From Nitrospirota bacterium (GTDB lineage Bacteria; Nitrospirota; Thermodesulfovibrionia; UBA6902): 35,525 nucleotides of DNA. Under the pieces are notes generated by a model, which was not told the origin of the DNA, did not search any database, and saw only the letters and a program-made list of their open reading frames with translations. The stretch is from NCBI GenBank assembly GCA_016213945.1, contig JACQZF010000067.1:1-35525 (forward strand). The letters run 5' to 3'. Both the position numbers and the translations under genes were made by a program. Positions 10,915 through 31,800 of this stretch are shown one piece after another. Position 1 is the stretch's first letter; every line of letters begins with the position of its first letter.

Positions 10915-11371
10915 TGAGGTCATCGGACACGTTGGCAGTGTATTAACGGAGGGCCAGAAGAAACGGGGGATTTTGATCCACGCCTTTCAGAAGATCCAGG
11001 AGGAGCACAATTTTCTCCCTGAAGAAGAACTGAGAAGGCTGTCGAAATACCTTGATATTCCCATGTCTGATGTTTACAGCACCGCCACTTTCTACAAGCA
11101 GTTCTATTTTTCACCGCGCGGAAAGAAGATAGTGCGGGTTTGCACCGGCACCGCGTGTCATGTCAGAGGCGCGGACAAGGTGCTCAAAAAAATAAAAAAT
11201 GAGTTCGGCATCGAGGAAGGCGAAACCACTGCCGACCTCACCCTTACGCTTGAGACAGTGGGATGTATCGGATGCTGCGGTCTTGCGCCGGTCGCAACAA
11301 TAAACGAAGACGTTGTCGGCGAGATAGACATGAAGAAGGTTGAAGGAGTAATTGAAGAGATAAAAAAATAA
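10898..11371 (+). CDS. NuoE/HydC-like thioredoxin-fold [2Fe-2S] subunit
   Basis: 157 residues from the ATG at 10898, chosen because TTGGAGG lies 4-10 bases upstream; a TTG at 10883 is part of that region. The protein has an N-terminal helical bundle (about 20-75) and a thioredoxin-like ferredoxin fold with CTGTACHV (about 82-89) and CIGCCGLAP (about 123-131), the four-cysteine site of NuoE. In NADH dehydrogenases and HydABC-type complexes this subunit pairs with the FMN subunit encoded next. It overlaps acsA by 17 bases, so translation is coupled to CODH. Confidence 0.92.
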   Translation: MSLKTDEVIGHVGSVLTEGQKKRGILIHAFQKIQEEHNFLPEEELRRLSKYLDIPMSDVYSTATFYKQFYFSPRGKKIVRVCTGTACHVRGADKVLKKIKNEFGIEEGETTADLTLTLETVGCIGCCGLAPVATINEDVVGEIDMKKVEGVIEEIKK

Positions 11372-11384
11372 AACCCCTCTGTGT

Positions 11385-11418
11385 CCCCCCTTAGTAAGGG
11401 GGGAATTTAAGGGGGGTC
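11385..11418. repeat. CCCCCCTTAGTAAGGGGGG hairpin repeat
   Basis: A perfect 8-3-8 palindrome at 11385-11403 followed by AATTTAAGGGGGG, which can pair alternatively with the C-run. A related C/G-run pair lies at 23062-23113. It fills the NuoE-NuoF gap and lacks a U-tract, so it is called a repeat, not a terminator. Confidence 0.75.
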
Positions 11419-11446
11419 ATTTTTCAGCATTATAAAAAGGTGAACT

Positions 11447-13789
11447 ATGGCAAAACTGAACAACGCAAATGAATTAAAGGAACTGAGGCAGAAGCTGGCG
11501 CAGGAAACCTTCAAACCCAATACGCTAAGGACAAGGGTTTGCTGCGGCACCGCATGCACTGCTACAGGCGCTTACAAGGTCATTGATGAATTTAAAAAAG
11601 AAGCTGCCAATTCAGGCATTGACCTTGAGATTGTAAAGACAGGCTGCCAGGGGATCTGCCAGAAAGGCCCTGTGTTAAAAGTGGAGCCGATGGATATTTT
11701 TTACCAGAGGACCAAGCCTGAAAACGTATCCTGGATCATGAGCTATTCAATTCTCGGCAACATGCCTTACAGGCAGGGACTTTACAGAGACAGCTTCCTC
11801 AGCGAGCCGGTGCCGGTAATGACGGATGTCCCTTTTTACAAAAAGCAGAAAAGAATAGCGCTGAGAAATAACGGGAATATAGACCCGTGCAATATTAACC
11901 ATTATCTTGCGGTCGGCGGTTATGCCGGGCTTGAAAAAGCCTTATCTGCAATGAGCCCTGATGAGGTCCTTGCTGAAGTGGACAGAGCAAACCTTAGAGG
12001 AAGGGGCGGCGCGGGATTTCCTGCCGGCAAAAAATGGAAGCATTCCAAATCCGCACCGGGCCATATTAAATTTGTAATAGCAAACGGCGATGAAGGCGAC
12101 CCCGGCGCGTTTATGGACAGGTCGATCATGGAAGGCGATCCGCACAGCCTGCTTGAAGGAATGGCTCTCTGTGCGTACGCGATAGGAGCACAGTACGGAA
12201 TTATTTATGTGAGACATGAGTATCCCCTTGCAGTTAAAAATCTCTGGATCGCCATAAAACAGGCGGAAGAGCTGGGGCTGCTTGGCAAAAACATACTCGG
12301 TTCTGATTTCAGTTTTACTATGGACATAAGAGAAGGCGCGGGCGCGTTTGTGTGCGGTGAGTCCACAGCTCTTGTTGCCTCAATAGAAGGCGAGAGAGGT
12401 TTTCCAAGGCCGAGGCCTCCGAGGCTTTCCGAGCCGGGCGGCGGTGCGTGGGGTTATCCGAGCAATCTTAATAATATTGAAACATACGCCTGCGTCCCCG
12501 TTATCATTGAGCAGGGATCAGACTATTTCCTTTCGATTGGAACAAAGACATCTCCCGGCACCAAGGTGTTCGCACTTACGGGGAAGGTCAAAAACACTGG
12601 ACTCGTTGAAGTCCCGATGGGCATTACCTTGAAAGAAATTATCTTTGACATCGGAGGCGGGATACTCGGAGACAAGAAGTTCAAGGCAGTCCAGACAGGC
12701 GGCCCCTCTGGAGGCTGTATACCGGCTTCATATCTCGACCTGCCTGTTGATTTTGACTCACTGTCCTCTGTCGGTTCCATGATGGGGTCCGGCGGGATGG
12801 TTGTTCTGGACGAAGATACCTGTATGGTTGACGTGGCGAAGTTTTTCCTCTCATTCACGCAGTCCGAGTCCTGCGGCAAATGTCCGCCGTGCAGAATAGG
12901 AACATCGCAGATGCTTCAGATACTTCAGAGAATAACATCTGGTAAAGGCGAGCTTGGCGATATACAGAGACTGGTTGATCTTGGCAAGAATATTCAGAAG
13001 ACCTCTCTCTGCGGTCTCGGACAGAGCGCTCCGAATCCCGTTCTCAGCACCATTAAATATTTCAGAGAAGAGTATGAAGAACACATTTATGACAAATACT
13101 GTAAGTCCAATGTCTGTACTGGAATGGGAGTTTTCATAATAGATCAGGATGAATGCTTCAGATGCGGACTGTGCAAGCAGGCGTGCGCGTTTAATGCCGT
13201 CATTGAAACGAGAGAGAGATTCCTTATTGACCGCACCGCATGCACTCAGTGCAAGGCATGTTTTACGGCATGTCCAATCAAGGCTGTCAAAATAAGAAAG
13301 CAGAGACATGTACTGCTTGAGGAAATTTTCAAGATACCTATTGAAAAAATAGAGGTAATAGACAGGAGGGCAAAAATGACGCTTGGCGACATTATGAAAA
13401 CAAAGGCATCGTATGAGCTTTTCGCCATGACCCCTAACCACAGGGTCGCGGACGCGATAAAGCTTATGAACGATAGAAATATCAGCGCGGTAATGGTTGT
13501 TGACGAAAGCCAGAACTTAAAGGGAATGATCACCGAGAGGGACATAGTCCGCGGCCTGTCCAAGGGCGGGACGTTCTTAAACGAGATAATACAGAACATC
13601 ATGACCCGCGAGGTGATAACGTTTACTCCGTCCACTGAAGTCAGCGCGGCCATATCGGTTGTCGCAAATAAAAAAGTAAGACATCTGCCGGTTGTTGAGG
13701 GAGACAGGATAGTCGGAATGATCACCTACCGTGACCTTGTTTCATATGTCCTGCCCGAAATAATCTATATGGCTGAAGATATGTATTAG
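11447..13789 (+). CDS. NuoF/HydB-like FMN-NADH subunit with ferredoxin and CBS-pair domains
   Basis: 780 residues, far longer than NuoF (about 430-450). Domains in order: N-terminal thioredoxin-like [2Fe-2S] domain (C33, C37, C67, C71); FMN/NADH Rossmann-like domain with NLRGRGGAGFPAGKKWK at about 183-198 and GAGAFVCGESTALVASIEG at about 298-316; SLBB-like region; NuoF 4Fe-4S site ESCGKCPPCRIG at about 473-484 plus the later CGLG cysteine at about 523; two 4Fe-4S ferredoxin motifs (CFRCGLCKQAC and CTQCKACFTAC, about 570-610); and a CBS pair at about 645-770 (ITERDIVRGL, MTREVITFTP, ITYRDLVSYV). The first five elements match HydB of bifurcating complexes. The CBS tail would normally bind adenosine nucleotides and could gate electron flow. 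It forms a unit with its NuoE- and NuoG-like neighbours. Confidence 0.92.
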   Translation: MAKLNNANELKELRQKLAQETFKPNTLRTRVCCGTACTATGAYKVIDEFKKEAANSGIDLEIVKTGCQGICQKGPVLKVEPMDIFYQRTKPENVSWIMSYSILGNMPYRQGLYRDSFLSEPVPVMTDVPFYKKQKRIALRNNGNIDPCNINHYLAVGGYAGLEKALSAMSPDEVLAEVDRANLRGRGGAGFPAGKKWKHSKSAPGHIKFVIANGDEGDPGAFMDRSIMEGDPHSLLEGMALCAYAIGAQYGIIYVRHEYPLAVKNLWIAIKQAEELGLLGKNILGSDFSFTMDIREGAGAFVCGESTALVASIEGERGFPRPRPPRLSEPGGGAWGYPSNLNNIETYACVPVIIEQGSDYFLSIGTKTSPGTKVFALTGKVKNTGLVEVPMGITLKEIIFDIGGGILGDKKFKAVQTGGPSGGCIPASYLDLPVDFDSLSSVGSMMGSGGMVVLDEDTCMVDVAKFFLSFTQSESCGKCPPCRIGTSQMLQILQRITSGKGELGDIQRLVDLGKNIQKTSLCGLGQSAPNPVLSTIKYFREEYEEHIYDKYCKSNVCTGMGVFIIDQDECFRCGLCKQACAFNAVIETRERFLIDRTACTQCKACFTACPIKAVKIRKQRHVLLEEIFKIPIEKIEVIDRRAKMTLGDIMKTKASYELFAMTPNHRVADAIKLMNDRNISAVMVVDESQNLKGMITERDIVRGLSKGGTFLNEIIQNIMTREVITFTPSTEVSAAISVVANKKVRHLPVVEGDRIVGMITYRDLVSYVLPEIIYMAEDMY

Positions 13790-23159: not shown

Positions 23160-23996
23160 ATGAAACCACTTTCACTCGGATACTCCCCCTGCCCTAACGA
23201 CACCTTTATCTTCTATGCCTTGATTCACGGCAGGATTAATACGAATGATCTCAAATTCAAAGAGGTCCTCCTCGACGTTGAGACCCTGAATCGAAAGGCG
23301 CTGAATGCTGAACTCGATCTGACCAAGGTCTCCTACCACGCGTTCGGTCACCTGAGAGATAAATATCGTCTGCTGAGAGCTGGAGGCGCGCTTGGAAGAG
23401 GCTGCGGGCCGCTTGTCGTGGTGAAACATGATTACACAATGAAAGAACTGCGCGGCAAAAATATCGCCATCCCCGGAAGGATGACCACCGCCTTTTTGCT
23501 GCTGCAACTTTATGATCCCGCTTTTTTTTCATCTTCTGCCCTCTGCCCTCTGCCCTCTGCCTTTGTCGAAATGCCTTTTCACAAAATCATGGAGGCGGTT
23601 GCAAATGAAGAAGTTGACGCGGGCTTGATAATCCATGAAAGCAGGTTCACGTATCCTTCTTTTGGATTAAAGCAGGTTATCGATCTCGGCGAATGGTGGG
23701 AGAGAGAGACAGGCCTGCCCATTCCCCTTGGAGGCATTCTTGCGAAAAGGTCCCTTGGTGACATGGTCAATGAAAAGCTCAATTCGTTAATTAAAAAAAG
23801 CGTTGAATACGCCTTTGGCAATCGCAGCGAGCCGATGGAGTATATAAAAAAACATTCCCAGGAACTTTCCGATGATGTCATCAATCAGCACATTGATCTT
23901 TACGTAAATGATTACTCTCTTGATATTGGCGCTGAAGGTGAAAAAGCTGTAACAGAACTCCTCTCAAGGGCGGAAGAGGCAGGCATCTTCTCGTGA
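23160..23996 (+). CDS. mqnD: 1,4-dihydroxy-6-naphthoate synthase (futalosine menaquinone pathway)
   Basis: 278 residues of the periplasmic-binding-protein-like MqnA/MqnD family. SPCPNDTFIFYALIHG at about 9-24 and GLIIHESRFTYPSFGL at about 159-174 are MqnD signatures; MqnD converts cyclic de-hypoxanthine futalosine into the naphthoate ring precursor. Residues about 124-137 (SSSALCPLPSA) are encoded by a CTGCCCTC repeat and look like an insertion between PGRMTTAFLLLQL and the VEMPFHKIM strand. It may be tolerated as a surface loop. The gene ends in GTGA shared with the start of ppx. Confidence 0.9.
   Translation: MKPLSLGYSPCPNDTFIFYALIHGRINTNDLKFKEVLLDVETLNRKALNAELDLTKVSYHAFGHLRDKYRLLRAGGALGRGCGPLVVVKHDYTMKELRGKNIAIPGRMTTAFLLLQLYDPAFFSSSALCPLPSAFVEMPFHKIMEAVANEEVDAGLIIHESRFTYPSFGLKQVIDLGEWWERETGLPIPLGGILAKRSLGDMVNEKLNSLIKKSVEYAFGNRSEPMEYIKKHSQELSDDVINQHIDLYVNDYSLDIGAEGEKAVTELLSRAEEAGIFS
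23536..23566. repeat. CTGCCCTC tandem repeat inside mqnD
   Basis: About four tandem units of GCCCTCT (7 bases), translated as ALCPLPSA in the mqnD frame. The unit resembles one arm of the self-complementary repeat at 25892-25995 and the repeat at 1484-1508. Confidence 0.7.
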
Positions 23997-24961: not shown

Positions 24962-25433
24962 AACAACTTCGATCACATACCAGTTCAGGAAAGCCACCAT
25001 CAAAGACGTCAAGGCAATACATGTCCTTGTGAACCAATTCGCAAGGAAGGAAGAAATGCTCCCTCGCTCCCTGAATGAGATTTACGAGAACATACGCGAT
25101 TTCTTCATCTGTCTTGATGACGAAAAGATCGTCGGGGCCGCCGCGCTTCACATCCTTTGGGAAGACCTTGCCGAGGTGAGATCAGTTGCCGTGGCAAGCA
25201 CTTATCAGCGCAAAGGCATAGGCGGGAAGCTGGTAAAAAAATGCCTGAAAGACGCTGAAGCCCTCGGCGTGGAAAAAGTATTTGCCCTCACCTATCATCC
25301 GGGGTTCTTCAAAGAATTGGGATTCCATGACGTTGACAAAGACGCCCTCCCGCAGAAGATCTGGGGCGAATGTCTCAAATGCCACAAGTTTCCAGAGTGC
25401 AACGAGCTGGCAGTGATAAAGGAATTAGGGTAG
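24954..25433 (+). CDS. GNAT N-acetyltransferase, ArgA-like (possible N-acetylglutamate synthase)
   Basis: 159 residues. GNAT core: FRKATIKDVKAIHVLV at the start, VGAAALHI at about 62-69, EVRSVAVASTYQRKGIGGKLV at about 77-97 with the acetyl-CoA loop Q/RxxGxG, and HPGFFKELGFHDV at about 114-126. The tail KIWGECLKCHKFPECNE has three cysteines, typical of the stand-alone ArgA-like group that acetylates glutamate in arginine synthesis. The function is likely but unproven. It overlaps ppx by eight bases and ends nine bases into the convergent surA-like gene. Confidence 0.8.
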   Translation: MSKTTSITYQFRKATIKDVKAIHVLVNQFARKEEMLPRSLNEIYENIRDFFICLDDEKIVGAAALHILWEDLAEVRSVAVASTYQRKGIGGKLVKKCLKDAEALGVEKVFALTYHPGFFKELGFHDVDKDALPQKIWGECLKCHKFPECNELAVIKELG

Positions 25434-26012
25434 ATCAGGTCCGGCGGAAAGCCTTACCCTTATATAAGCGTTATCTCTCAGCTCTTTTATATGCTCAAGC
25501 AGTTTTAATCTCAATTTCCCGACAACGAGAATGTCCTCTATCTCATCCTTGACTTCGAGAAATTCTTTACCGCTGAAGCGTTCCGTATTATTTGTATAAA
25601 AAGCCTCTATCTCTTCTATCGGGACATGTATCGAGGATTTTATTCTCTTCTCTATGTATTCTTTTACAAGGGCATCATCGTCAGCCGCTTTATTAGAGGA
25701 ATTTCCCGGCCTCAATCTCTTCGCCTGTTCAAGAAGCAGGATCCTGTTTATCATCTCATCCAGGACCCTGGCCTCTGATATATTCACGTCCGATTTTCTT
25801 GCCGTGTTAAGGGCCTTCTGATATTCACTCTGCAGGACGACTTCCTTATTTACTATCGCCACTATCCGGTCGAGGACGTCAGCATGACTGTCAGAGCAAA
25901 GCGCAAAGTGCAAAGTGCATAGAGCATAGAGTGTAAGAAAAAATACCCGGCGCAAGAAATTATCTTTGCCCTTCGCCCTTTGCCCTATGCTCTGCTTTTT
26001 TTTAGAACGCAT
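25425..26012 (-). CDS. SurA N-terminal-domain periplasmic chaperone
   Basis: 195 residues from the ATG at 26012, which overlaps the bamA stop; a start at 26051 would sit further inside bamA and add 13 residues. After a signal peptide (basic residues 3-24, hydrophobic 25-40, likely cleavage after SHA at about 44) comes DVLDRIVAIVNKEVVLQSEYQKAL, the SurA_N signature, and LDEMINRILLLEQAKR. There is no parvulin (PPIase) domain, so only the chaperone core is present. It would help deliver outer-membrane proteins to the adjacent BamA. The signal peptide is encoded by a self-complementary repeat. Confidence 0.82.
   Translation of the reverse strand: MRSKKKQSIGQRAKGKDNFLRRVFFLTLYALCTLHFALCSDSHADVLDRIVAIVNKEVVLQSEYQKALNTARKSDVNISEARVLDEMINRILLLEQAKRLRPGNSSNKAADDDALVKEYIEKRIKSSIHVPIEEIEAFYTNNTERFSGKEFLEVKDEIEDILVVGKLRLKLLEHIKELRDNAYIRVRLSAGPDLP
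25892..25995. repeat. Inverted repeat of GCAAAGT/CTTTGCC units that encodes a signal peptide
   Basis: The left arm (25892-25933) has AGCAAAGCGCAAAGTGCAAAG-type units and CATAGAG units; the right arm (25964-25995) has CTTTGCCCTTCGCCC and CCTATGCTCTGC, its complement. The loop is about 30 bases. It lies wholly in the surA-like coding region. Confidence 0.8.
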
Positions 26013-28773
26013 GTCCAAAGCTGAAGTGGAGTTCTCCTGAGGTTTCTCCACGGTCCCTGTTCATTTTATGCCCGTAGTCTAAGCTGATCGGGCCGATAGG
26101 TGTTTTATATCTCAGGCCCGCGCCGGAGGTATATTTTAATTTCATGCGCACATCCTGAAGCAGCTGCCACACGTTGCCCGCATCCATAAATGTCACAAGC
26201 CCGAACCCTTTTCCGAGCGCTATTCTGAATTCGAGGTTTCCAAGGGCGAAAATGTTGCCGCCTGTCGGCGAATCGTCAGCGCCTTTCGGCCCGAGGGTGT
26301 CATTGCTGTATCCCCTGACCGTTGTCCTTCCGCCAAGAAAAAATCTTTCAACAAGGGGCAGCTCCTGAATGGTGTCATAACTGTAAGCGGCGCCGCCCCT
26401 TAGTGAAAACGCAAACACGACCCTCTTTATTACCGGGAAAAACCATGAGCTTTGGACTGTGCCCTTTATAAATTCGGTCTCCGAGAGCAGGGCCTTTGAG
26501 GCAAACTTGACGACAATGCCGTGTAATGAGCCCCTGGTCGGATCAAAAGGGTCGTCCCGCGTGTCATAGAATAATGAAGGTGTGGCGCTGCCTATGCCGA
26601 TTGTCCCGGAATCTTCACGGCTCAATATTACGCCGGGCTCAACGTCCTTGGTGTCGACAAAAGAGTACTCATAGTTCAGGGTCGCCCTCCATTCTTTTTT
26701 TATCACTTTTTCGATGCCTAAAAGCATGCCCGTCCTGTCGATCTTGTACAGCACGTCTCTTGTATCAAGGTTGACGGACCGCGTCTTCTCTTTAATCAAT
26801 AAAGCCGTAAACAGCAGGTCCCGCTGGTTAAAAAGCCACGGCTCTTTGAAACTGAATGTATATCTTTCCTTGACCGCGCTGAAATCGCCCTTGAGCCCTA
26901 CCTGCCTGTGATATCCGCCGAGGTTATTGTAGTTGATGCCGAGCGAGCTGCGAAACCTTTCGTAATCACCGTAACCGAGACTGATCTCCACGGAACCCGG
27001 GTTGCCTTCTTTCAGAGAGACGAGCATGTCCCTTACAAGTTTACCGTCCTCTGTCTTCTCGGTTTCGAGAACGCTTACCGATACTTCATTGAAAATGCCG
27101 AGCTTGTAAAGCCGCTGTTTGGTCGTCAGGATATCTTCATAATTATAGGTATCGCCTTCAGTTACTGTAAATTCCCGCTCTATGATCTTCGCCTTAGTCT
27201 GGCGGTTTCCGCTGATGATGATCTTCCCTATGACGGAGGGCCTGTTTTCAGTGACCTTGAAAGTTATAAAAGCCTTGTCCTCCTCGACCCTGCTTTCTAC
27301 CTCAACGCGCGCGTCCATATAGCCTTTACTGTTGTACAGGGAAATGATCCTGTATCTCGCATCTCCTATGTCGACTAAATTGTAGGGGGACCCTTTCTTA
27401 AGCTGCAACGCGTTCTCTATCTCAGAGGAACCGATGTCCCTGTTGCCTTCAAACTGAATACCTTCGATCTTTGTCTGGGGCCCTTCCGCGATAATAAATT
27501 TCAGCAGCAATTGACTGCCGTCTTCCTGGAAATCTTTTTCTATTTCTTTTATGTCCGTCTTGATGTACCCAAGCGCGTTGTAAAATCTCAGGACCGAATC
27601 CCTGCTTGCCGCTAAAAGGTTATCATTGTATGGCTTCCCTCCGGTAAGGGGAATTATGCTCTTAACAGCCTCGGAAGAGATGCTGGTCCCTTCAAATTCT
27701 ATCTTCTTCAGAAAAACCTTTTTGCCTTCAAAGATAATAAAATCAAGCTTTATGACTTCATCCTCTGTCCGCTTTCCCGCGGCGACCTGCGCGTAGTAAT
27801 ACCCTTCTCCCAGGTAGACGCTTTTCATCCGGTCAAGCGCCTCCTGCACCGCTTCGTCAGTAACTTCCCCGTCTTCAAAAAAAGGGACCTCTTTTTTGAG
27901 GTCTTTCGCGCTCACCGCGTAATTGCCTATAAAAGACATTTCGAGTCTCTGCCCTTTGTTGACCGGCACGACGAGGACGCCGTCCCTGAATTCATACGGG
28001 CCGGCAACTGGGTTGAAATAATTTTCGGATTTTAAATATTCCTTCAGATTTTTTATTTGCAGGTCCACTGCGTCCTTATCAAATATGTCCCCCTCCGATA
28101 CCTTAAAGTACCACCTCAGATCAGCGGCGATGTCAACAGTATTTATTATCAGGGGCGGCCCCTCGTTTATTTGTATGTTCAGGTGGACTTCAGCCGGCTT
28201 GTCTGTTTGTTCAGCGGAGATCGTGACTTCGGCGGAAGGGAACCCCTTTCTCCCGTAATGGTTGAGCAGGTCCGTTTTCGCCTTATTGAGATATTCTTCC
28301 CTGAAATCATCTCCTTCTTTATACGGAATTACTTTCTTGATATCCCTGACAGAGACTTTTTTATTTCCGTCCATAACAATTTTTTTAATGAGCGGTATCT
28401 CTTTAACAACATACTTTAATTTGGTCCCGCCGTCATAAGGCCCGGACACCGCCTGTATGTCATAGAAAATTCCTTTTCTGAAGGCCCTTTTTATGCCTAT
28501 GGCCAGTTCATCTTCATCGAATATTCTCCCCACCCTTAGATCGATAAGTTCTATCAATTCCTTCTTATCGATCCTGTGAAGCCCCTCAACCTCAATCGCC
28601 CTGATGACTTTGTCTGAATCTGAGGCATATGTATAAATAGGAAGTAAGAAGTAGGAAGTAAGAAGTAAAATAAAGGCAAGAATTTTACCCCTATATTTTT
28701 CTGGATTCCCGCTTTCACGGGAATGACGCCATTTGCTGTGATTAATGTCGCAATATATATTTATCATTTTCAC
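26002..28773 (-). CDS. bamA: Outer-membrane assembly factor BamA/Omp85 with seven POTRA domains
   Basis: 923 residues. Following a signal segment (about 33-50) come seven POTRA-like repeats, each opening with an I-x-x-I-x-[FVI]-x-G strand: IRAIEVEG, IKKIVMDG, INTVDIAA, LEMSFIGN, LKKIEFEG, IEGIQFEG and IGKIIISG, covering about 57-600. The Omp85 beta-barrel follows, with the VRGY lid motif (RTTVRGYSND) at about 818-827 and a C-terminal phenylalanine (SFGHAF). E. coli BamA has five POTRAs. It inserts beta-barrel proteins into the outer membrane. It may also act as TamA-like partner of the TamB encoded upstream. GTG 28773 or ATG 28767 may start it; the first ~30 residues come from repeats (see 28637-28800). 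Confidence 0.93.
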   Translation of the reverse strand: MKMINIYCDINHSKWRHSRESGNPEKYRGKILAFILLLTSYFLLPIYTYASDSDKVIRAIEVEGLHRIDKKELIELIDLRVGRIFDEDELAIGIKRAFRKGIFYDIQAVSGPYDGGTKLKYVVKEIPLIKKIVMDGNKKVSVRDIKKVIPYKEGDDFREEYLNKAKTDLLNHYGRKGFPSAEVTISAEQTDKPAEVHLNIQINEGPPLIINTVDIAADLRWYFKVSEGDIFDKDAVDLQIKNLKEYLKSENYFNPVAGPYEFRDGVLVVPVNKGQRLEMSFIGNYAVSAKDLKKEVPFFEDGEVTDEAVQEALDRMKSVYLGEGYYYAQVAAGKRTEDEVIKLDFIIFEGKKVFLKKIEFEGTSISSEAVKSIIPLTGGKPYNDNLLAASRDSVLRFYNALGYIKTDIKEIEKDFQEDGSQLLLKFIIAEGPQTKIEGIQFEGNRDIGSSEIENALQLKKGSPYNLVDIGDARYRIISLYNSKGYMDARVEVESRVEEDKAFITFKVTENRPSVIGKIIISGNRQTKAKIIEREFTVTEGDTYNYEDILTTKQRLYKLGIFNEVSVSVLETEKTEDGKLVRDMLVSLKEGNPGSVEISLGYGDYERFRSSLGINYNNLGGYHRQVGLKGDFSAVKERYTFSFKEPWLFNQRDLLFTALLIKEKTRSVNLDTRDVLYKIDRTGMLLGIEKVIKKEWRATLNYEYSFVDTKDVEPGVILSREDSGTIGIGSATPSLFYDTRDDPFDPTRGSLHGIVVKFASKALLSETEFIKGTVQSSWFFPVIKRVVFAFSLRGGAAYSYDTIQELPLVERFFLGGRTTVRGYSNDTLGPKGADDSPTGGNIFALGNLEFRIALGKGFGLVTFMDAGNVWQLLQDVRMKLKYTSGAGLRYKTPIGPISLDYGHKMNRDRGETSGELHFSFGHAF

Positions 28774-28800
28774 TTCTCACTTCTTACTTTTTACTTCTCA
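28637..28800. repeat. Composite repeat at the bamA 5' end (GAAGTAA hairpin plus half REP)
   Basis: Left arm: GGAAGTAAGAAG units at 28638-28670. Right arm: complementary CTTCTCACTTCTTAC units at 28770-28800. Between them lies a half REP unit, CTGGATTCCCG...CGGGAATGAC (28701-28727). On the minus strand the left arm encodes LLLTSYFLLP of the BamA signal segment and the REP encodes HSRESGNPE. Confidence 0.8.
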
Positions 28801-28801
28801 C

Positions 28802-31800
28802 TTATTTAAACTCAAACCTGAATTTTACGTCTCCGCCGACACTGCCTATCTCGTCCCTTGATCCGACAAGGGAAACACCTTTATCAAGTTTGTATTCAAG
28901 CTTGATAACGCTTTCCTCGGTCGTGCCTATGGAGGAGGAATACGTCACAAAGAGTTTGTCCTCAAGAAGCCTCTTGCCTATGGTGACCTTGGGGCTCAGC
29001 GAGCCTGTAGCCGTTGTATAAGGCTCAACATAAAACCTCTCGATGCCGGTGATGCTCTTGAATTTTTCACCTACTACGTCCTGCAGGCCTTCGGTAAGTA
29101 TTGCCGCTGCCTCGCCCGCGGCAATGCCGCTCTCAAACCCTTTTGTCTCTTTCCTGAGCTGGCCTGCGGTAAGCAGGGTGAGTATCTCCATTTCATTCAG
29201 AGGAGGATCTGAAAAGAGCGACAGGGTAAATTTATCAACCGTCCCGTCCAGATTAAGCTTAACGTAGTATTCTCCAACATAGGTGTCGGCCATAATGTGA
29301 AACACCGGGACTATGCGGTTGGAGTCCACAAAGTCGACCATGCTGCCCTCAAGGAGTTTGAATTCATTGCTCCTGAAATATATGGTCCCTTCATTGGCCT
29401 CGATCCTTCCGATAAGTCCGTAATTAGTGACGTTCCCGGTCAGATTGACTGATATCTTTATGGGGGTCTTTGCGATGTTATTGTCTATGACGATATTGTC
29501 AGCGCCGGAGACATGCACGTTAAGCTCAAGGCCCTTCAGAAAAGACGGATAATTCACAGGCCCGCTGACTTCCTTGAGGCCAATGAGCCACTTGTTCCAT
29601 TCAATGTTTTTCTCATACCTGGCTTTTATTATATCTATGTTGCCGGAAAGCGTGGAGCCTTTTTGGGACATCTCATAAAAGAGTCTTCCATTCACTGTGG
29701 CGCTTACCTTTTCAACGGGCCTGATATTGATCCCTGAAAGCTGCGACGACACGTATATCCTCTTCACCGATAATTCCTGAACGTATACAACTCCTGACAG
29801 GACTGCCGAGCCCCCGCCGAAGCCGGCCTTCACTGAATCAAAAGTGGCCCTGTCTCTTTTCAGGAAAAGGGTCCCGTTCACAGGGCCGACCTTATAAGGA
29901 TACTCCTTCAGTGACGCGATAGCGTCGTTAATATTCACATCGCCTGTTATCTCAGGTTTTTCCCAGAAGCCTGAGATATCAAGGTCTAAAGCCCCCTGCC
30001 CCCGCAGAGAAACAAGCTTGTCTGAAAATGCCTTTAAGGGGGCCAGATTCAAATTGCCTTTGACTTTTACGTTGAATTGCCTGCCCGGACTCAGATCGCC
30101 TTCAGCCGACAACTCGCCGTTGTCTCCTGTCAGAGAGAGAGATTTTATCAAAAGCATATTGTCGGCAAAATTCAGGACAACGTCTTTGCTGTTTCTGAAA
30201 TCATATCCGTAGAGCGTGAGATTAAAAAAGTTAAACTTTGACGATAATGAATAATTCTTTCCTTCCCCGTTTATTTTCGCATTGCCCCCGAGTGAAAGCG
30301 CGAGGTCTTTCGGCACGTTTTTAAAAAAGCCTGCCAGCAGAAAATCATATCTGCCTCTATGGACGTCAACGTCAACGTCCCATGTTATATTTTTGGAAAG
30401 AGAGACCCTTGCGTCGGCGGACACAGTCCCGTTTAAAAGTACTCCCCTAACTGTGATGTTCTTTTCTTTCATTTCGCCGGTCACTTCGCCCAGTCCGGTA
30501 TGAACGCCTCTGAACATGCTGTCAATGATCCTCATGGAAAACTTCATGTCAGGGTTTTCAATGGCGCCTGAGCCTTTAATGTCCATGCTGAAGGTCGCGT
30601 CAACAGGATAATCCTTAAACATATTGATATCGTATAAATGCATTTTGTCCGATGAGGCTGAGAGGCTGAATTTTTTATCAAAGGACAGCGTTCCTTTTGC
30701 GGAAAGCGCGGAGTCGCCGTTTTGCGCTGTAACGGAGTTGAAGTCGATGCCCTTTGGGTCCAGCGAGGCGTTAACAGCGACCCTCGTAAACTGCTGGCCG
30801 TACACTTTGCTTTCAGCAGCCACTAAATCTCCTTTGGCAATGTAATTCTCAGCATCGCCCTCAAATTCAAGTGAGCCGCTTGCGGAGCCCGTGACCGGGA
30901 TGTCTTTATACAGGGCTGAAATAAACGGCTTTATGTCGATACCTTTGACCGAGGCCTTTGCCTTGTACGAAGGGGCCTTAAAAGAGAAGAGTTCTTTGGC
31001 ACCTCTGAATTCGATCGTGCCTGACGCGGCACAGGATGCTTTGCCGTGAGTAATGTTCAGGTTGTTTACCGCGAGAGAAAGGATTCTGTATTTCAGGTCA
31101 GCGGACGCCTTTGTAAACGCTATCCCGTGGACACTGCCTCCCGCTGAATCGAGCCTGCCGGATATCTCAGGGTCTTTAAGAGGCCCTTTTGCCGCGCCCG
31201 CAAACCTGACAGGCGCTGAGAGTTTTGAATAATATGGGGCGGTCAGGTCGGAGGCGTCTCTGCTTTCGAGCAGAAGATCGAGCCACATTGTGTTGTTGTC
31301 GAATTCTAAAATTCCATCTAAAGAAAGATTTGAAGCCGCCGTTGAAAAAACAGCATTGCTTATCTCAAGGACATTCTCCTTCAGATCAAGGTCCCCTTTT
31401 ATACTTTGCAGCCTGTTAAGCACGTCTCCTTCAGCTTTGGTGGTATTGAGGTAATTCACATTCGCGGTGACCGCGATGTCTTCCCCCTGGACCTGTGTCA
31501 GTTTGAAATGCCCGCCGATCTGCCCCCTGGGAAATGGAGGCTCCCACCCTATGTATTTAAAAAATTCCGGGCTGCTGATCCCGGAGATATCGGCTGCAAC
31601 TGAATAATCTCCCTCCGGTATCGATATCGACGCGTCTCCTTTTCTCAGCTCTCCTCCATAGGCGCGCGCGGTGAAATTATTAATGGAGAATTTCTTGTTC
31701 TCGTATTTTATTTCCCCTTCCGCACTGTCAATTGGAAGTGTTTCGAGCATGACCTTCTCAAGGTCCCCCGCACCCTCTCCGGTCAGCTCAGGGAAAGTGC

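Follow-up and report, generated by a model that had tools for sequence, protein, structure and literature searches.

How whole signal peptides arise or are replaced is an open question, and the 5′ end of a SurA-like gene in this genome of an uncultured Nitrospirota bacterium (G000) raises it directly: can a palindromic repeat supply the export signal of a protein? The gene lies in the window, by which we mean the whole 35,525-nucleotide stretch of DNA that was analyzed. The first-pass annotation had described an inverted repeat at the start of this gene, and an inverted-repeat search of the window confirmed it. Two arms of 32 nt each (25892–25923 and 25963–25994) are 81% complementary and are separated by a 39-nt loop. 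The inverted-repeat score was 17, compared with 7.5 in the adjoining mature part, and all 100 Markov shuffles made of the 170-nt region scored lower. The features of the locus are listed here.

25425–26012, minus strand: SurA-like periplasmic protein gene (ORF); ATG 26012 is the preferred start, with GTG 26051 and TTG 25955 possible
26002–26012, minus strand: start of the SurA-like gene overlapping the bamA stop codon (26004–26002), ATGCGTTCTAA
25963–25994, minus strand: 5′ arm, a purine-rich GCAAAGG heptamer array, coding for the basic n-region KQSIGQRAKGKD if the start is ATG 26012
25924–25962, minus strand: loop between the arms, containing the alternative in-frame start TTG 25955–25953
25892–25923, minus strand: 3′ arm, a pyrimidine-rich heptamer array coding for the hydrophobic core LYALCTLHFALC, mean hydropathy 1.78
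25881–25891, minus strand: c-region up to the presumed cleavage site between SHA and D; the mature part runs from 25880, and homology with relatives begins at DVLDR/EVLDR

The ORF has 208 codons and directly follows bamA on the minus strand. A profile search matched it to PF09312 (SurA_N) at 22.6 bits, below the curated cut-off of 30.8, and a Pfam domain search of the protein found no PPIase domain; we therefore use the name SurA-like only. Orthologues were present in 58 of 61 genomes, and the roughly 150 mature residues (window 25425–25880) belong to a conserved chaperone-like family adjoining bamA. On the minus strand the ORF reads M(26012), RSKKKQSIGQRAKGKDNFLRRVFFLTLYALCTLHFALCSDSHA and then, after the presumed cleavage site, DVLDR. 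This has the predicted layout of a Sec signal peptide, with a basic n-region (RSKKKQ..RR), an uncharged hydrophobic core (VFFLTLYALCTLHFALC) and the motif S-H-A, which places small residues at −3 and −1.

Whether both arms are translated depends on the start codon. ATG 26012 overlaps the bamA stop codon (GGACATGCGTTCTAA), an arrangement shared by G001, G004, G041, G044 and G052. In G004, G041 and G052 no ATG, GTG or TTG other than the overlapping ATG lies near the signal, any further ones being upstream inside bamA, so translation of the n-region in those genomes has to cross the 5′ side of the module. For this reason ATG 26012 is the favored start in G000 as well, judging from the sequence. 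A start at the in-frame TTG 25955–25953, which would leave the 5′ arm untranslated and still yield a good signal peptide (MRRVFFLTLYALC...SHA), is a less favored alternative in G000. Derivation of the hydrophobic core from one arm, as first proposed, thus holds for the 3′ arm, while derivation of the basic n-region from the other arm holds only if translation begins at ATG 26012.

Absent from that proposal was the internal structure of the arms. Both are tandem arrays of one unit of exactly 7 nt, GCAAAGN (p7 0.76–0.80), with the units GCATAGG, GCAAAGG, GCGAAGG and GCAAAGA, and GCAAAGC, GCAAAGT, GCAAAGT and GCATAGA. The period-7 score of the signal region was 20, compared with 3 in the mature part, and was matched by none of 200 shuffles. 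Since 7 leaves a remainder of 1 when divided by 3, three units pass through all three reading frames, and the same heptapeptide results in any frame (ACTTCTT gives LLLTSYF; ACTTTGC, TLHFALC; CTGTCTT, LSSVFCL; ACTGTTC, TVHCSLF). The 7-nt period would explain function in any frame, and strand composition explains which arm is basic and which hydrophobic. One arm gives Lys, Arg, Gln and Glu and the other Leu, Phe, Cys, Ser and Val: the pyrimidine-rich strand yields hydrophobic residues and the purine-rich strand peptides such as EVRSQKS, EDRRQKT or GKGQRAK.

We compared the locus with that of a sister species, G004. The 315 nt ending at the bamA stop codon are 97.5% identical between the two genomes in alignment, and the first 150 nt of the mature part of the gene are 90% identical. 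Between these flanks lie unrelated palindromes, 121 nt of the GCAAAGN family in G000 and 112 nt of the ACAGAAG family in G004, and the G004 palindrome codes for a predicted signal peptide unrelated to that of G000. No second copy of the G000 module was found in the whole genome, where the only hits besides itself were two partial ones, about 30 nt long and 90% identical. Nor did we find a clean empty site or a target duplication for it, the sister species carrying another module in its place. Exchange of families was also seen in an intergenic gap (window 11364–11450 compared with L129), where a CCCCTTA/TAAGGGG palindrome in G000 occupies the site that holds a GTAGTTA-type palindrome in G004.

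These observations are best accounted for if the DNA between bamA and the mature part of the SurA-like gene, formerly leader and signal-peptide codons, was replaced by a palindromic module of two opposed 7-nt arrays, and we hold this explanation, taken as a whole, to be probable. The pyrimidine-rich 3′ arm would be read as the hydrophobic core, and the purine-rich 5′ arm as the basic n-region or, where that arm has stop codons, as an untranslated leader. Because the heptapeptide is identical in all frames, a module landing at this position would yield a usable Sec core regardless of frame, and selection would need to preserve only the charge at the start and small residues at the cleavage site. 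Such modules would also sit in gaps and, as hydrophilic linkers, within soluble proteins, the hydrophobic reading being kept by selection only at exported N-termini. We infer that the replacement occurred in one step, that its product serves as a cleaved signal, and that arrays spread by recombination or by copying within the genome.

At other genes the two sister species share a module. For TolB, EnvC and BamA it is common to both and differs by unit changes; in EnvC the net difference is 21 nt, that is, three units or seven codons, and the frame is kept. A 27-nt array insertion at L036 is likewise in frame. Such gains and losses of units would be expected if an array had grown by slippage within an existing signal peptide, its second arm then being copied by template switching (quasi-palindrome correction). 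The TolB loops, conserved between G000 and G004 while the arms differ, also fit that account, as does the fact that recognizable arm pairs are usually of one family. We nevertheless think it unlikely, because the same small set of heptamers recurs across unrelated genes, gaps and genomes, and at surA the arms and loop all changed together between close relatives. Repeat tracts with a unit that is not a multiple of three act as phase-variable switches in known pathogens, which suggests a contingency locus in which gain or loss of a 7-nt unit frameshifts the gene off. That reading is scarcely credible for degenerate units in genes such as bamA, tolB and lolA, and the coding differences observed (27 and 21 nt) keep the frame.

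Arrays recur in the signal regions of relatives. Counting an array signal at a period-7 p ≤ 0.05 over 48 SurA-like loci, we found one in 10 of 10 loci of the genus, 5 of 25 in the rest of the family, 7 of 7 in other families of the order and 4 of 6 in the rest of the class. The signal region carried an array in 22 of 30 TolB and 11 of 29 BamA orthologues, while the first 170 nt of the mature part of the same orthologues carried none (Fisher p = 8e-10 and 3e-4, respectively). An assembly artifact was considered and is ruled out by recurrence of the arrays in independent MAGs and in single-contig genomes (surA in G052; TolB in G033 and G022). The units seen include ACTTCTT, ACTTTGC, ACTTGTC, ACTGTTC, ACTATTC, ACTCATC, CTGTGTT, CTGTCTT and ACTTTTC, among others, and nearly all give stop-free heptapeptides of Leu, Phe, Val, Cys, Ser, Thr, Tyr and His. 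Families vary even within the genus, where 18 of 21 TolB pairs differ at two or more of the seven positions. The g2 genomes (G010, G024, G030) have ordinary signals without arrays, e.g., MIKGRTVFIILLAAVYLFSAGTASA. The comparison of orthologues suggested in the first-pass annotation supports its proposal through the array signals found throughout the genus and the unrelated family in G004, whereas the low count in the rest of the family (5 of 25) and the ordinary signals of the g2 genomes speak against it. Its statement that both arms make the signal peptide stands for the 3′ arm; the 5′ arm is dispensable, since many orthologues retain the h-region array alone, and 5′ arms of the GTAAGAA type hold in-frame stops and act as leader.

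This pattern bears on the rival view that what matters is a hairpin in the RNA, spanning the start region and regulating how envelope genes are translated, with the signal-peptide reading as a by-product. Where both arms persist the predicted hairpins are strong. The surA repeat of G000 folds at −46 kcal/mol (z −3.4), with z-scores of −5.1, −5.8 and −2.9 at surA in G004, G007 and G008, and of −7.3 for bamA, −5.3 for TolB and −7.4 for EnvC; moreover, the genes concerned belong to compact operons in which stop and start codons overlap. However, the h-region array is kept without a hairpin in G009 (z 0.13), G005 (0.05) and G038 (1.56), arm pairing in surA is not significant in G001, G002, G003, G005 or G009, and the same palindromes occur in many gaps between genes that have no common function. 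Array-free relatives have no hairpin at surA. What is retained among relatives is the peptide rather than the hairpin, and we judge control by RNA structure to be a distinctly improbable explanation.

The neighboring bamA gene has the same two-arm design as surA, built from a different heptamer.

28768–28805, minus strand: bamA 5′ arm, an array of GTAAGAAGTGAGAAG heptamers within the leader that overlaps the end of the tamB-like gene upstream
28702–28727, minus strand: REP-like palindrome GTCATTCCCGTGAAAGCGGGAATCC in the loop of the bamA module, coding for HSRESGNP ahead of the signal core; also present in bamA of G004
28633–28670, minus strand: bamA 3′ arm, a TTACTTC heptamer array coding for the signal-peptide core LLLTSYFLLP

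For a wider census we sampled 708 kb of the G000 genome and 440 kb of G004. The window itself held six period-7 segments against 0.2 expected, and none at other periods except 14, which overlapped the same arrays. The 708 kb contained 58 period-7 arrays, compared with 0–17 at the other periods between 5 and 11; arrays of the GGGGATT type are present elsewhere in the genome. Two opposed arrays lie close together in 20 palindromic heptamer modules in the 708 kb, most of them in short intergenic gaps. Other genes whose 5′ ends lie in such repeats, which the first-pass annotation had proposed to look for, do exist: five of the 20 modules overlap the 5′ ends of genes for exported proteins (TolB, EnvC/M23, CbiN-like, SurA-like and BamA), and another is internal to a P-type ATPase-like ORF. 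The ATP synthase operon has gaps filled by palindromic heptamer modules (L040 5020–5101 and 7489–7556). A second class of palindrome, built on an 8-nt-like unit (ACCACAGAGRCACAGAGRCACGGAG ... CTCCGTGTCTCTGTGGT), occurs about as often in the genome as the heptamer modules (L052 9764–9925, L108 151–282, L042 13051–13168 and others).

N-terminal arrays were found in TolB, EnvC/M23, LolA, a secretin lipoprotein, a YbgF-like lipoprotein, an M16 peptidase, a multihaem cytochrome, ATP synthase b, and CbiM and CbiN-like proteins; in some of these genes the array codes for the n-region only. Within the 708 kb, 13 of 118 signal-like genes (about 11%) and 6 of 488 other genes (1.2%) had one (p = 3e-6), by a signal-like criterion that is crude, is partly circular in that arrays help make the core, and counts the CbiD-like L098, which is probably not exported. 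Several of the proteins were identified by Pfam, and these identities are independent support for the link between arrays and exported proteins. Arrays with a hydropathy above 1 made up 11 of 33 N-terminal and 0 of 43 internal arrays (p = 3e-5), a Kyte–Doolittle cut that was set after the data were seen, although internal values reach at most 0.99 and those of the cores start at 1.13, leaving little overlap between the groups. Internal arrays read as hydrophilic or neutral peptide. Purine/pyrimidine strand bias was also tried as a discriminator of internal from N-terminal arrays and failed (Fisher p = 0.81), whereas hydropathy separates them. Genes within one genome showed no significant sharing of unit families (p = 0.19), so we make no claim of a recent common donor or a local copy source.

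These distributions could also mean that heptamer palindromes spread as junk and simply persist at loosely constrained sites such as gaps, linkers and signal peptides. Arrays numbered 296 per Mb in gaps and 229 per Mb over the first 150 nt of ORFs, compared with 65 per Mb in ORF interiors, and arrays do form hydrophilic linkers inside apparently soluble ORFs. In-frame examples are at L041 9073–9105, L047 12345–12376, L052 2397–2470, L098 4734–5930 and window 23535–23561; by eye the hosts are ArgS-, YbeY-, PriA- and CbiD-like, and the linkers read SEVRSQK, PNPQSP or TRHPSPV. We take such neutral tolerance to be plausible, if a little short of persuasive, and it overlaps our preferred explanation as to how arrays arrive, so that belief in one does not exclude the other. 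Against tolerance as the full account, the array codes for most of the hydrophobic core in proteins that must be exported (BamA, TolB, LolA) and so has to work there, and hydrophobic readings are restricted to N-termini.

The first-pass annotation had viewed hairpin insertion as a one-step route to new or replaced signals. Replacement by a heptamer-palindrome module is strongly supported by the swap between sister species, by the common design of TolB, BamA, EnvC and LolA, and by the absence of arrays from mature parts. The replacements seen are in proteins already exported rather than new signals on formerly cytosolic ones, and insertion in a single step is our reading of a surA locus for which no intermediate or empty site was found. 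More generally, we lean towards the view that heptamer palindromes are a standing supply of frame-independent Sec signals, used by roughly one in ten exported proteins, some of them essential, and that exchange of whole signals between species may outpace change in the mature proteins. Palindromic heptamer repeats would then be a way to swap an entire export signal with the rest of the protein unchanged. Here the donor sequence is visible, and signal-peptide birth becomes testable by simple reporter fusions. Treating the repeats as noncoding may lead to wrongly annotated gene starts and signal peptides in genomes of this kind.

In the literature searched, which covered few subscription journals, we found no precedent for a recurrent supply of signal peptides to core envelope proteins with exchange between sister species. 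Several known systems share parts of the pattern. Heptanucleotide elements occur within and between genes in Geobacter (PMC2700814). The GGGAATC heptameric repeats of Xanthomonas are degenerate, tandem, genome-wide and 89–93% intergenic (Rehm et al. 2015, PMC4692102), and X. campestris pv. campestris has 70 cases of two opposite-strand arrays close together (PMC4692102). Tandem 7-nt units and nearby opposed arrays are thus common to both, but the Xanthomonas repeats are one G-rich unit, studied for G-quadruplexes and with no signal-peptide coding role, in arrays reported at conserved locations, whereas here GCAAAGN lies within coding sequence and unit families are exchanged between sister species. 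In Beggiatoaceae, TAACTGA direct repeats upstream of starts are proposed regulator binding sites (MacGregor 2015, PMC4679880); these heptamer arrays are also close to start codons, but they are direct (with one inverted case), of one unit and non-coding, whereas ours are inverted and coding.

A survey of Enterobacterales found insertions and deletions of full signal peptides between orthologues and sought transposable elements as the cause, finding none (PMC5952966); the gain and loss of whole signals is similar, and a repeat origin is visible only in the present case. Rickettsia palindromic elements, as a review recounts the work of Ogata et al. (PMC10969869), are conserved, about 150 bp long and in frame in protein genes, where they code for a conserved peptide. 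The surA module is likewise a palindrome in frame inside a protein gene, but, compared with the elements as that review describes them, it lacks a conserved sequence and peptide: our modules have in common only the 7-nt unit, itself variable, and differ in length and loop. In Yersinia, a MITE forms part of one predicted signal peptide (PMC2759123; reviewed in PMC2229807). There, too, a palindromic repeat contributes to a predicted signal and the signals of relatives are unrelated. MITEs, including RU-2/YAPL, are multiple copies of one conserved element, which the surA module, with its two partial matches of about 30 nt, is not. The Yersinia case is that of a single fixed element of 168 bp in a single gene of unknown function, whereas here short-unit arrays serve many core envelope genes in many genomes.
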